Below are positions 55,446-64,000 of a stretch of DNA of 64,000 nt, piece after piece. Under the pieces are notes generated by a model that ran no database searches, was not told the DNA's origin, and worked only from the letters and a program-made list of their open reading frames with translations. Each line of letters starts with the position of its first letter. The stretch's first letter is position 1. The position numbers and the translations under genes were made by a program. Origin of the DNA: an uncultured Synechococcales cyanobacterium (GTDB taxonomy: Bacteria; Cyanobacteriota; Cyanobacteriia; Thermosynechococcales; Thermosynechococcaceae); the NCBI GenBank assembly GCA_902806435.1, contig CADCWO010000069.1, positions 1-64,000 of the forward strand, in the 5' to 3' direction.

Positions 55446-56129
55446 ATGCAAAAGCTTATCGTGATCACAGGGGTGTCTCGCGGTCTAGGACTGGCGATGA
55501 CGGAGCAGTTTATCGCTGCCGGGCATACGGTGCTTGGTTGCGCTCGCTCTACTAGGGCAGTCAAGGAACAGTGCGCTAGATTTGGCTCTCCTCACGATTT
55601 TGCTGTGGTGGATGTGGCAGAGCAACAGCAGGTGCAAGCTTGGGCGGAGCGCTTGCTGGCAAATTATGGACCGCCGGACTTGTTGATTAATAATGCCGGA
55701 GTCATTAATGCCCTGGCACCCCTGTGGCAGGTTCCGGCGCAGGAGTTTGACCGGGTAATTGAGGTGAATATCAAGGGCGTCATGAATGTGATTCGTTCCT
55801 TTGTGCCGGCGATGATCGCCAAGCGAAGTGGCATCATTGTTAACTTTAGTTCTGGTTGGGGTCGTTCTACCTCGCCGCAGGTGGGGCCGTACTGTGCCTC
55901 TAAATGGGCGATCGAGGGCCTGACAAGATCTTTAGCTCAGGAATTGCCCTCCGGCATGGCGGCTGTGCCTCTCAACCCCGGTATTATTCACACTCAGATG
56001 CTGGAAATTTGCTTTGGCACGGAAGCTGCCGCCTATACCTCTCTAAAAGATTGGGGAGTAAAAGCCGTTCCGTTCTTGCTTAAGCTCAAGCCAAAGGACA
56101 ATGGGATGCCGCTGACTGTTACCGCCTAA
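55446..56129 (+). CDS. Short-chain dehydrogenase/reductase
   Basis: 227 residues. The coenzyme motif is TGVSRGLGL (TGxxxGxG), NNAG is present, and the catalytic triad is Ser (NFSSGWGRS) with YCASKWA (YxxxK). The substrate is unknown. It is a classical SDR without an extra domain. A 200-base gap follows before the GGDEF-EAL gene and holds nothing recognisable. Confidence 0.9.
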   Translation: MQKLIVITGVSRGLGLAMTEQFIAAGHTVLGCARSTRAVKEQCARFGSPHDFAVVDVAEQQQVQAWAERLLANYGPPDLLINNAGVINALAPLWQVPAQEFDRVIEVNIKGVMNVIRSFVPAMIAKRSGIIVNFSSGWGRSTSPQVGPYCASKWAIEGLTRSLAQELPSGMAAVPLNPGIIHTQMLEICFGTEAAAYTSLKDWGVKAVPFLLKLKPKDNGMPLTVTA

Positions 56130-59795: not shown

Positions 59796-61301
59796 ATGGT
59801 GAAAAGTACAGTTTTAGCTTTTGGTCAAGGTGGTAGCTCAGCAATGGCAGTGGAATACGATCTAGTTGTGATTGGTGGCAGTGCTGCTGGCTTGTCTGCT
59901 GCTGTTGCCGCAGCCCATCTAAAAGCGCGAGTTGCCCTAGTAGAAGCACATCAGCTCGGGGAAACAACGTTTTTACGCCGTCAAGCTTTGATTGAAGTGG
60001 GGCGAGCTACCCGCCAAGCCCATGCTGCGCCTCAATTTGGGGTTGATAATCTCGCAACAAATGTTGGGGGAGTTTCAGTAAGCTGCGATCGCGCCATGCG
60101 GTGGGCTGAGGGTGTTGTTGCCACCCTAACCGAAAATGACCCCCAGGCAGGTTCAGCGGCTGCCCTAGCAACTTTGGGTGTGGAGGTGATTTTTGGGGGC
60201 GGTCAGTTTCACAATGCGCCGCTATGCTTTAGCGTTAACGGGCGGCAACTGCGATCGCGGGCCTATCTAATTGCAACAGGCACTTATACTGCCAAGCCCA
60301 ACCAGGAATTGCAAGCTACCGGGTATTTGACAAGCGAAGATATCTTATCAAGCTTAAATTTCACTCAGTCTCAAATCCCTCCATCCCTCCAAAACTTACT
60401 GGTGATTGGAGGGGGGCTAGTTGCTACTGAACTTAGTCAAACTCTCAACCGTTTAGGGTCCAATGTGACGATGGTGGTCGAGGCTCCACGCCTCTTAGCC
60501 CAAGAAGATGCCACCGCCGCCCAATTAGTGCAAGCTCAGTTGGAAGCTGAGGGTGTTCGCATCCTTACCGATAGCCGGATAACGCAGGCAAAGCAGCTCA
60601 ATGGTAAGAAGTGGGTTTCAACCGGGGAGTACACCATCGAGGCGAGCGAAATTTTGCTGACTGTCGGGCAGCGCCCCCAGGTGGAATCGCTCAACCTGGA
60701 ATCAGTCGGGGTGCAAGTCGGGAAACAAGGAGTCCAGGTCAATGAAAAACTGCAAACCTCCCATCCTAGAATCTATGCCTGTGGAGAAGTGATTGGCGGC
60801 TACCCGCTGCCCCATGTAGCGCGTTATGAGGCGGCAATTGCTTTGAAAAATGCCTTGTTTTTCCCTAAATTTAAAGTGAACTATCGCGCCGTTCCCTGGG
60901 CAGTATTTTCTGATCCAGAACTAGCCCGTGTCGGGTTAACAGAAGCACAAGCAAGACATCGGTATGGGCAGATTCAGGTTTTGCAACAGTTCTATAAAAC
61001 AATAGCTAAGTCCCAGCTGCGGGGCGAAACCACGGGATTTTGTAAAATGATTGTCTTCAGAGACGGCACCATTCTTGGCGCCCATTTAGTTGGTTCTGCC
61101 GCCGCAGAAGTGGTGCATTTGATTGCTTTAGCAATGCAGCAACGGCTGAAGGTCAAAGCCCTATCTGATTTAGTACACATCTCTCCCACGTTTTTAGAAA
61201 TTAACTTCAAAACTGCTACAGAGTGGGGATTAGGTCAGCAATCAGCACGACAAGACTGGCTGGAAAGCTGGTTCAACCTGCGCCGTGCCTGGTCTTCCTA
61301 G
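59796..61301 (+). CDS. FAD/NAD(P)-dependent oxidoreductase lacking the redox disulfide
   Basis: 501 residues of the mercuric-reductase/dihydrolipoamide-dehydrogenase fold. FAD motif DLVVIGGSAAGLSAA, NAD(P) motif LLVIGGGLVATELSQTL, FAD-ribityl IYACGEVIGG and dimerisation domain from WAVFSDPELARVGLT to the end. At the place of the redox pair CxxxxC it reads LGETTFLRRQAL without Cys, and the C-terminal HPxP dyad reads VHISPTFLE. So it is not a standard disulfide reductase. Start may be 59796 or 59844 (MAVEYDL). It is upstream of the TS-like fusion by 48 bases on the same strand. Confidence 0.82.
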   Translation: MVKSTVLAFGQGGSSAMAVEYDLVVIGGSAAGLSAAVAAAHLKARVALVEAHQLGETTFLRRQALIEVGRATRQAHAAPQFGVDNLATNVGGVSVSCDRAMRWAEGVVATLTENDPQAGSAAALATLGVEVIFGGGQFHNAPLCFSVNGRQLRSRAYLIATGTYTAKPNQELQATGYLTSEDILSSLNFTQSQIPPSLQNLLVIGGGLVATELSQTLNRLGSNVTMVVEAPRLLAQEDATAAQLVQAQLEAEGVRILTDSRITQAKQLNGKKWVSTGEYTIEASEILLTVGQRPQVESLNLESVGVQVGKQGVQVNEKLQTSHPRIYACGEVIGGYPLPHVARYEAAIALKNALFFPKFKVNYRAVPWAVFSDPELARVGLTEAQARHRYGQIQVLQQFYKTIAKSQLRGETTGFCKMIVFRDGTILGAHLVGSAAAEVVHLIALAMQQRLKVKALSDLVHISPTFLEINFKTATEWGLGQQSARQDWLESWFNLRRAWSS

Positions 61302-61349: not shown

Positions 61350-62906
61350 ATGACAGCCACAGGTCAGGCAGCTTACCAATACCAACCCTTGTGCAAACCC
61401 GGCCAACTCATTTGCGGCACTGGGCAAACAGCGGTGATTACAGGTTGGACGGTCAAAGGCGCGATCGCCAAGCGCCTCCAGTCCCAAGAATTTGCAGTCA
61501 TCGGCCAGCTATACAGTCCCACCCGCGGTATCAGCTTTTTAATCCGTAACCTGCTGGCTAATCCCCATGTGCGCTATTTAGTTGTGGTGAATGCCACTAA
61601 AGAAGATCGCAATGCTGGAGGGTGTGATTGTCTACTAGATTTCTTTCGCCACGGATTTGAGGCTGGGGAAAGTGATACGGGACGGCGTTGCTGGGTGGTT
61701 AGCTCTTCCATTCCTGGCTATGTTGACTTTGAAATTGCCGAAAGTGCTTTGGAGCAGTTGCGCCAAAGTATGGAATGGTTTGAGGTCAAGTCGATTTCTG
61801 AAGCTGTGCACCAAGTTCAAGCTTTAGCGCTCCAAGCCCTTAGAGATAACCCGAAACCCTGGGGAGCACCTTTGAGCTTCCCCCAACCGCCAGAGAGCGC
61901 TGTAACAGTGCTGCCAGGACCCCGCTACGGCCACCGAATTGAAGGGAAAACGATCGCCCAAACCTGGGTGAAAATTATTCACCGGATCAAAACAATGGGA
62001 ACCATTCGTCCCACAGGATATGACGGACAATGGCAAGAACTAATTGATTTAATGGCAATTGTCACCGATGAGCCAGCCGGGTTTTACTTTCCTGAGCCAA
62101 ACTATTTGCCCTGCGATCGCCCGTTTATCGAGCAGTACATTTCTCATATTCTGGATGATGCCCCTGACCAAGAAGGAATTCAATATACCTATGGCCAGCG
62201 CCTGCGCTCCTGGTTTGGTCAAGACCAGGTTGAGCAAGTGATTCAAAAATTAATCATTGAAATTGATTCTGCCAGGGCCGTGATGTCTCTTTGGGACGTG
62301 CGCGATCACGCTGCTGACCATAGCCCTCCCTGTCTCAATCACATTTGGCTGCGAGTCACTGAGGGGGAACTATCTTTAACGGCAACTTTCCGCAGTAACG
62401 ACATGTTTGCGGCTTGGCCTGCAAACACGATGGGCTTACGGGCACTACAGGAACATATATGTAGTCAAATTGCCAGTCGTTCCCCTCACAAGCTGAACGT
62501 AGGGCCGCTGATTACTGTCAGTCAGAGCGCCCATATCTACGATGATTGCTGGGAAAATGCCGATCAACTGATTCAAAATCAGTATGCCAAGATCTGCGCT
62601 GCACGAGATTACGCTGACCCAGCAGGGAGCTTTGGCGTGAGTGTGCAGGGCAGTAAAATTCTAGTCGAACACCTGACGCCTGGTGCCGGAGAGGTCGTCA
62701 ATTGCTACTGCGGTACTTCTGCAAGCCAGCTCTATCGCCAGATTTCCGCAGACTGCCCTGTCCTGCAAGTAGAACATGCCCTTTACCTAGGTACAGAGCT
62801 GCAAAAAGCGGAGTTAGCCACAACTACAACGTTTATCTACGAGCAAGATAAGCCGTTGCGGCGCGGAAGTCTGCCGGGGGAATCTTCCCCCGGCAGACTT
62901 CCTTAG
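61350..62906 (+). CDS. MtrA-like / thymidylate-synthase-like / DUF4346 fusion protein
   Basis: 518 residues, three parts. Residues about 15-165 resemble methyltransferase subunit MtrA: AIAKRLQSQEFAVIGQLYSP and NLLANPHVRYLVVV, but the corrinoid-ligating His is not seen. Residues about 195-415 look like a thymidylate synthase catalytic domain: SPPCLNH with Cys328, FRSNDMFAAWPAN with Arg348 and Asn359, and SAHIYDDCWENADQ. Residues about 420-490 resemble DUF4346 (EHALYLGTELQKAE). It may make dTMP or another C5-modified pyrimidine. The last 14 residues come from a 17-bp palindrome. dcd lies tail to tail 33 bases away. Confidence 0.8.
   Translation: MTATGQAAYQYQPLCKPGQLICGTGQTAVITGWTVKGAIAKRLQSQEFAVIGQLYSPTRGISFLIRNLLANPHVRYLVVVNATKEDRNAGGCDCLLDFFRHGFEAGESDTGRRCWVVSSSIPGYVDFEIAESALEQLRQSMEWFEVKSISEAVHQVQALALQALRDNPKPWGAPLSFPQPPESAVTVLPGPRYGHRIEGKTIAQTWVKIIHRIKTMGTIRPTGYDGQWQELIDLMAIVTDEPAGFYFPEPNYLPCDRPFIEQYISHILDDAPDQEGIQYTYGQRLRSWFGQDQVEQVIQKLIIEIDSARAVMSLWDVRDHAADHSPPCLNHIWLRVTEGELSLTATFRSNDMFAAWPANTMGLRALQEHICSQIASRSPHKLNVGPLITVSQSAHIYDDCWENADQLIQNQYAKICAARDYADPAGSFGVSVQGSKILVEHLTPGAGEVVNCYCGTSASQLYRQISADCPVLQVEHALYLGTELQKAELATTTTFIYEQDKPLRRGSLPGESSPGRLP
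62865..62902. repeat. 17-bp perfect hairpin at the 3' end of the TS-like gene
   Basis: GGAAGTCTGCCGGGGGA and its exact complement, with a 4-base loop ATCT. It is within the coding sequence (codons for GSLPGESSPGRL) and ends 1 base before the stop codon TAG. No T-run follows on either strand. It could be a bidirectional terminator-like or mobile palindrome. Confidence 0.85.
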
Positions 62907-62939
62907 CTACCCACCTAAGCTCAAGGAATCATAAGTCAA

Positions 62940-63536
62940 TCAAACACGGGCCAGGGTGACTGTCTCGGTTTGGTCTTGATACTTACCCCGCCGCGCTTCG
63001 TAACTCACTGCACAGGGTTCGCCTTCTAAAAAGAGAAGCTGCACAATTCCCTCATTGGCATAAATTCGGCAGTCAGCACTAGAAGAATTGGAAAACTCTA
63101 AAGTTAAATGACCTCGCCAACCAGCTTCGGCGGGAGTGAGATTGGCAATCAGGCCCGTTCTGGCATAAGTACTTTTCCCAATACAGATGACAGTGACATT
63201 CTCTGGAACAGCTAAGTGCTCCATGGCAACGCCCAAGCCGTAGGAGTGAGCTGGAAGAATAAAGTAGCTACCATCAGTATCCGTGTGTAGCGGGGTTGGT
63301 TCCAGGTTGGCCGGATTGAATTTTTTCGGGTCTACGACTGTGCCCGGAATGTGCCGAAACACCCGGAATTCATTGGTACTGAGCCTGATGTCGTAGCCAT
63401 AGGACGACAATCCGTAGCTAATCACCCGGCGAATTTGTCCATTGTCTGCATCAATTTGTCGAACCAAAGCGGGCTCAAAGGGAGTGATCATCCCTTGCTG
63501 AGCCATTTGGACAATCCACGTATCGTTTTTAATCAC
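62940..63536 (-). CDS. dcd: dCTP deaminase
   Basis: Turns dCTP to dUTP in the pathway to dTMP. 198 residues from GTG 63536 (VIKNDTWIVQMAQQ); the frame is open to 63611 but that would overlap the preceding gene by 44 bases. Motifs: SYGLSSYGYDIRLS, VICIGKSTYARTGL and TPAEAGWRGHLTLEFSN with the catalytic Glu, then EGIVQLLFLEG. Convergent with the TS-like gene. Confidence 0.94.
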   Translation of the reverse strand: MIKNDTWIVQMAQQGMITPFEPALVRQIDADNGQIRRVISYGLSSYGYDIRLSTNEFRVFRHIPGTVVDPKKFNPANLEPTPLHTDTDGSYFILPAHSYGLGVAMEHLAVPENVTVICIGKSTYARTGLIANLTPAEAGWRGHLTLEFSNSSSADCRIYANEGIVQLLFLEGEPCAVSYEARRGKYQDQTETVTLARV

Positions 63537-63567: not shown

Positions 63568-64000
63568 TTAGGGCCAAGGATTACGGCGAAGTTGCGTAAT
63601 TTGATCTGCAATATCTAAAATGCTTTGTGGCATGTCTGGCCCTGTCAGAATCACATCCACAGGCTTGGGGCGCTCCCTGAGAAGTGCTAGCACCTCCGCT
63701 TCTGGGATCAAACCCAACCGGATTGCCAAACTCAATTCATCTAAAACGACTAGACAGTATTTTTCCTGCAAGACAACTTTCTGTGTATGCTGCCATAGCT
63801 CTAGTAGTGCTTGCGTTTCTGCTGCTTCTAGTTCTGGGGTATCAATACAGCGCGGCACATTACAGCGTAGCCAGTCTAAGTGTTGTCCTAAACAGACAGG
63901 GCGCTCATGACCTTGATTAATTCCGCCTTTGAGAAACTGCACCACTAGGACTGGGGTTCCCTGCCCCGCAATTCTTAGGGCTTGGGCCATCACATTCGTA
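63568..64000 (-). CDS. CobO-like corrinoid adenosyltransferase (partial, 5' end off window)
   Basis: The C-terminal 143 codons of a P-loop protein, cut by the window edge (its start lies beyond 64000). The visible part opens NVMAQALRIAGQGTPVLVVQ with FLKGGINQGHERP, then LDELSLAIRLGLIP (Walker B-like DEL), VILTGPDMPQSILDIADQI and a basic tail. This resembles the CobO/BtuR adenosylcobalamin pathway proteins of cyanobacteria. The usual GKGKTT P loop should be upstream. The upstream gene of dcd, 31 bases apart on the same strand. Confidence 0.75.
   Translation of the reverse strand, partial: TNVMAQALRIAGQGTPVLVVQFLKGGINQGHERPVCLGQHLDWLRCNVPRCIDTPELEAAETQALLELWQHTQKVVLQEKYCLVVLDELSLAIRLGLIPEAEVLALLRERPKPVDVILTGPDMPQSILDIADQITQLRRNPWP

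Follow-up and report, generated by a model that had tools for sequence, protein, structure and literature searches.

Thymidylate synthase (TS) chemistry requires a hydride and a one-carbon unit whose oxidation level is that of formaldehyde. Canonical ThyA (PF00303), the methanogen-type TS (TIGR03283) and protozoan DHFR-TS are the described systems closest to the catalytic part of the protein reported here. ThyX, which probably fills the same cellular role, is of unrelated fold, is flavin-dependent and produces no dihydrofolate. Two further families resemble the parts flanking the catalytic core. MtrA (PF04208) is the corrinoid subunit of methyl-H4MPT:CoM methyltransferase and binds cobalamin through His84, which is linked to Glu54 and a meander around residues 109–116 (PMC4915002). 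NF002128 is an MtrA-like/DUF4346 family of 390 aa.

The window analysed here, a 64,000-nucleotide stretch of DNA from an uncultured Synechococcales cyanobacterium, encodes a fusion that differs from each of these. It shares with E. coli ThyA the fold and the active-site residues listed below, but identity is about 23%, R126 is changed, no equivalent of W80 was seen in the alignment, and the C-terminal folate-closing tail is absent, with DUF4346 directly after the core. The methanogen-type TS is the best model for the core and is covered over its full length; both have a short N-terminus, lack the tail and carry the catalytic Cys/Arg/Asp/Asn motifs. The fusion has two extra flanking domains, and its host presumably uses tetrahydrofolate in place of tetrahydromethanopterin. 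In protozoan DHFR-TS, TS is also joined to a second domain, but the partner there is DHFR, and the fusion contains no DHFR domain. With MtrA the N-terminal domain shares the fold and a weak sequence match; it lacks His84, Glu54 and the membrane anchor, and is joined to TS. NF002128 contains the two flanking domain types in identical order (model positions about 124–269 and 289–369), but with no TS in between and with an extra leading segment of about 120 positions. A literature search found no description of the three-domain architecture or of its viral copies, and no paper that deals with DUF4346 or the fusion protein.

Domain organization of the fusion protein

The features of the locus are collected in Table 1. 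The ATG start is shared with close relatives, whose proteins begin in the same way (for example MTATGQAA in locus L007). In Pfam searches, Thymidylat_synt matched residues 274–412 (E 5.5e-18, 65.5 bits against a cut-off of 24.3) and PterinBD-DUF4346 (PF14251) matched residues 423–500 (E 2.3e-21, 76.8 bits against 29.6). MtrA (PF04208) matched residues 45–146 at E 0.02 and 14.9 bits, under its cut-off of 25. Across the 55 cellular members of the fusion family, PF00303 matches all and PF04208 matches 43. The initial annotation, made from the letters alone, had described a fusion of MtrA-like, TS-like and DUF4346 parts next to dcd; profile searches of the parts and structure prediction bear out the fusion, and the TIGR02274 match confirms dcd.

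Table 1. Features of the three-domain thymidylate synthase locus in the window.
Feature	Coordinates	Strand	Details
Three-domain thymidylate synthase gene	61350..62906	+	518 aa; coordinates include the stop; ATG start
MtrA-like Rossmann-type domain, without corrinoid ligand His	61392..61847	+	aa 15–166
Methanogen-type TS core	61932..62585	+	aa 195–412; TIGR03283, Pfam, PDB fold matches, E. coli ThyA alignment
DUF4346 domain	62613..62849	+	aa 422–500; Pfam E 2.3e-21
dcd, dCTP deaminase (supplies dUTP)	62940..63533	-	TIGR02274 E 4.8e-34; convergent with the fusion
cobO-like P-loop protein (PRK07414)	63568..63999	-	runs off the window edge

The catalytic core

TIGR03283 matches residues 197–402 (E 2e-41) at 141.7 bits, under the equivalog cut-off of 174.55. 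This model likewise stops before the tail, which is a feature of canonical ThyA and not superfamily-wide. A full-length structural model, computed as a monomer with moderate confidence in the TS part, matched TS structures in Foldseek with E about 1e-10 and a probability of 1.00; the top matches include protozoan DHFR-TS, through its TS part.

In the alignment with E. coli ThyA, C328 (codon 62331–62333), R348, S349, D351, N359, H395 and Y397 correspond to C146, R166, S167, D169, N177, H207 and Y209, respectively. In ThyA, N177 is the residue that selects uracil over cytosine. E230 is likely the equivalent of E. coli E58; this pairing comes from visual inspection of the local motif, the automatic alignment being gapped there. 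The core also has Y281. E230 and the seven residues aligned above show no variation across 55 cellular copies and 40 non-redundant viral ones. Cys328, Arg348 and Asn359 had been singled out from the first reading of the sequence, with numbering that proved exact.

The phosphate-binding region is less constant. E. coli R126, a phosphate-binding Arg, is replaced by Ala or Ser in the fusion copies, and R309, the counterpart of the other phosphate-binding Arg, E. coli R127, is Ser in 34 of the 40 viral copies. Loci L124 and L125 and most viral copies have an insertion directly before the catalytic Cys together with the change of R309 to Ser; L125 clusters with viral copies (support 98).

Loss of the corrinoid ligand in the MtrA-like domain

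The best NCBIfam MtrA subfamily for the fusion protein is NF002126 (E 8.7e-6). An AlphaFold2 model of residues 1–190, built from an alignment of 55 sequences, had a pLDDT of 91.7. Its best seven matches in the PDB are all MtrA, from crystal and cryo-EM structures (5l8x, 5laa, 9qtr, 9qts), with E 7e-9 to 7e-7 and TM-scores up to 0.74; the first non-MtrA match follows at E 1.7e-3. Judged from this model, the resemblance to MtrA is one of fold homology and not of chance.

A profile alignment with 5laa places MtrA His84 at position 87 and Glu54 at position 57 of the fusion. The window protein has Arg at position 87, where 47 of the 55 cellular sequences carry Lys or Arg and where His is absent among the commonest residues listed. 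Position 57 is Pro, Ala or Ser in all 55. The loss of the His ligand, already suspected in the initial annotation, thus extends to its partner. The loops around the pocket remain strongly conserved, in the motifs YS-x-x-RG (55–60) and T-x-E-D-x-N-x-G (83–90) and at Y55, S56, R59, G60, T83, D86, S119 and Y124; S56, R59, T83 and D86 are invariant polar residues. The pocket is thus retained, with its corrinoid chemistry lost, and it probably holds a ligand other than a corrinoid.

The DUF4346 domain

DUF4346 occupies the place of the canonical ThyA C-terminal tail. Its sequence found no match in the PDB. Elsewhere, DUF4346 is paired with DHPS-like (TIGR00284) and MtrA-like (NF002128) domains; both partners are linked to tetrahydropterin metabolism, the strongest clue to what DUF4346 does. 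DUF4346 probably contributes to pterin binding, as its Pfam name says. A stand-alone DUF4346 gene of 126 aa, related to that of the fusion, is present in the genome of the window (contig C230, L095:1441–1821), and PF14251 also matches in Synechococcus elongatus, M. jannaschii, M. acetivorans and S. acidocaldarius.

The fusion takes the place of ThyX

The genome of the window (4.79 Mb, 99.98% complete) contains the fusion gene as its sole PF00303 match; searches of this genome found no ThyX, second ThyA, thymidine kinase (TK) or FolA. Neither a canonical ThyA nor ThyX, either of which would have spoken against the unusual thymidylate route first proposed for this gene, is thus present, and the fusion is almost certainly the sole thymidylate synthase of the organism.

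In a sample of 292 genomes of the phylum, PF00303 was found in 42 and ThyX in 249. The 42 were reduced to 39 fusions by removing G129 (another protein), G035 (a canonical ThyA) and G204 (a sub-threshold match). For most of the 39 the whole ORF was read, and the rest were accepted by ORF length and match position. Among 139 genomes of the class, 39 have the fusion and 100 have ThyX, with both in one (G127) and neither in one (G245; Fisher p 8e-32); these counts cover related species and are uncorrected for relatedness, so that the p-values overstate independence. Genera g8, g15, g23 and g49 each include fusion and ThyX genomes, which indicates that the replacement happened repeatedly, and such within-genus swaps are sturdier evidence than p-values from genome counts. 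The distribution is the pattern of a non-homologous replacement of an essential function. TK was found in none of the fusion genomes. Outside the class, the three genomes of the phylum sample without any TS type (G016, G069, G173) all have TK.

Published counts can be read in the same way. A COG-based table of 31 cyanobacteria records ThyX in 23 and ThyA in 8 (PMC5954106, Table 2). That the two add up to 31 suggests that the eight are likely fusion carriers, apparently counted simply as ThyA.

Two genomes deserve separate mention. G129 was considered as a second genome with fusion and ThyX and was set aside: its TS-like ORF (L123, G129:C7:1785400–1787800) encodes a different, divergent protein of 383 aa without MtrA-like or DUF4346 parts, and ThyX is also present. 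G245, of the same class (genus g16), is nearly complete and has FolA; ThyX, ThyA, the fusion and TK are all absent from it.

Gene neighbourhood

dcd is downstream of the fusion and convergent with it, as in the window, at 33 of 74 fusion loci (some contigs are short), and the cobO-like gene stands beside dcd at 24 of the 74. ThyX is swapped for the fusion at times beside this same pair: in 7 of 10 ThyX loci examined, the cobO-like gene, dcd and thyX are clustered on one strand, with thyX close behind dcd. The cobO-like gene is the usual partner of dcd and not a working part of the TS. The initial annotation had called it corrinoid adenosyltransferase-like. A gene of this kind does follow dcd, but the closest NCBI model, PRK07414, describes a 'P-loop NTPase family protein' and scores 244 bits, just under its cut-off of 248. 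Its relationship to the CobA/CobO equivalogs is only distant (80 bits, where 168 would be needed), and it is not a proven adenosyltransferase.

Upstream, 48 bp from the fusion and on the same strand, is a MerA/lipoamide-dehydrogenase-like FAD oxidoreductase gene (59796–61301). It was rejected as a reductase partner, since just 2 of the 74 fusion loci have it nearby.

Cellular relatives and viral copies

A scan of GTDB contigs found 71 loci with relatives, all cyanobacterial except for a few evidently mis-binned records. Cellular carriers include Nostoc, Scytonema, Dolichospermum, Crocosphaera and Prochloron, and the fusion is kept in the reduced endosymbionts of Rhopalodia/Epithemia. Loci L048 and L063 have one in-frame stop within the matched stretch of the fusion gene. 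L094 (2355–3110), whose 3.5-kb contig was assigned to Chlamydiia in binning, is a stand-alone methanogen-type TS (TIGR03283, 162.9 bits) that adjoins a transposase-like gene and is possibly viral.

In IMG/VR, 93 viral contigs were matched and the best 80 retained (L141–L220; for example L150:2440–3882 and L177:2464–4005). Viral copies that are complete invariably contain the three domains; in L206 (2392–3951) the gene is broken by a stop. The full fusion was found in none of 50,697 GenBank phages searched. Within the best 80 of the 93 contigs, 49 loci have a dNTP-synthesis gene on the same strand within 3 kb: ribonucleotide reductase (RNR) in 43, mostly from one viral clade, dCMP deaminase in 4, thymidylate kinase (TMK) in 1 and dUTPase in 1.

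In the tree, some viral copies (L145, L150, L153) are nested in Dolichospermum/Anabaena and others branch outside the main clade of cellular sequences; at least three changes between virus and host are forced in this quick tree, made without bootstrap. The tree suggests cyanobacterial hosts for all of the viruses. A placement of L088/L089 within the viral clade was dropped, being unstable between two trees and on long branches.

Dihydrofolate recycling

FolA is missing from 32 of the 39 fusion genomes, that of the window included. No FolA was found beside the fusion in the loci tested, and no FolM ortholog scored above cut-off in 28 genomes tested. An SDR gene of the window (55446–56129) was considered as a FolM/PTR1-type reductase and discarded, its glycine motif being, as read by eye, an ordinary TGxxxGxG, with no FolM match above cut-off.

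These absences could be accommodated by a TS that needs no separate dihydrofolate reductase, whose flanking domains would keep the pterin bound or reduce it again, with no dihydrofolate being set free. Such a protein would be the equivalent of DHFR-TS made from unrelated, pterin-related domains of archaeal type, and cyanobacterial viruses would have spread it. The retention of both flanking domains in complete viral copies and the invariant polar residues of the MtrA-like pocket agree with this proposal, which we nevertheless regard as rather unlikely. Neither the MtrA-like nor the DUF4346 domain showed a known nucleotide-cofactor motif, and FolA is enriched, not depleted, among fusion genomes. 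Within the class, 7 of the 39 fusion genomes have FolA, compared with 3 of the 99 that carry ThyX alone (p 0.006, relatedness uncorrected); within family f7 the figures are 7 of 16 and 1 of 14 (p 0.04). This enrichment fits dihydrofolate as a product. Moreover, cyanobacteria with ThyX but without FolA need another reductase anyway, for de novo folate synthesis. The same need exists in FolA-less ThyX bacteria (PMC1971073), so that a missing FolA is by itself no proof of new chemistry.

Proposed function

The initial annotation had left a choice between an unusual thymidylate route and a nucleotide-modifying enzyme. The absence of a canonical ThyA and of ThyX from the window's genome and the interchange of fusion and ThyX across the class strongly support the former. 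The latter would be a dUMP hydroxymethylase or a TS-fold hydroxylase of the flavin type. The closest fold matches do include phage dCMP hydroxylases with a TS fold (9iqu, 9iqc), and many viruses carry the gene. This reading is nonetheless very improbable: the fusion replaces ThyX, 38 of the 39 fusion genomes would be left with no known source of dTMP (ThyX, another ThyA and TK all being absent), N359 is retained, and the viral neighbours are general dNTP-synthesis genes. Also proposed at first, a methyl donor other than methylene-THF, with the MtrA-like domain as corrinoid methyl carrier and the cobO-like gene as its servicing enzyme, draws on the MtrA fold and the nearby cobO-like gene but is unsupported and extremely improbable, as His84 and Glu54 are replaced, the catalytic and pterin-facing ThyA residues E230, D351 and N359 are kept, the cobO-like gene also partners dcd where ThyX is present and accompanies just 24 of 74 fusion loci, and the formaldehyde-level unit and hydride are not supplied likewise by a methyl-corrinoid.

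The observations taken jointly are best explained, with high probability, by a sole TS that uses ThyA chemistry with methylene-THF, has flanking domains for pterin binding and B12-free docking, has replaced ThyX and supplies viral dTMP. In this mechanism dUMP would be bound by R348, S349, N359, H395 and Y397 of the core, and Cys328 would attack C6. C5 would then be reductively methylated with 5,10-methylene-tetrahydrofolate, E230 serving as the catalytic Glu and D351 as a pterin contact, to give dTMP and dihydrofolate. DUF4346 would replace the missing folate clamp of ThyA and probably contribute to pterin binding, and the MtrA-like domain would most likely be a B12-free domain for ligand (folate) docking and assembly. 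Cyanobacterial viruses would carry the fusion to make dTMP for their own DNA. Against this explanation stand the FolA/FolM gap, the changes at R126 and, in viruses, R309, and the presence of both fusion and ThyX in G127.

Over a quarter of the sampled species in the main class of the phylum appear to rely on this TS architecture, and a set of genes from uncultured viruses spreads it. The usual partner of ThyA, FolA, is gone in most carriers, which makes FolA-less recycling of dihydrofolate directly testable with one protein. The MtrA-like/DUF4346 pair is now linked to dTMP synthesis, and this link predicts a TS-related role for the NF002128 proteins that lack a TS.
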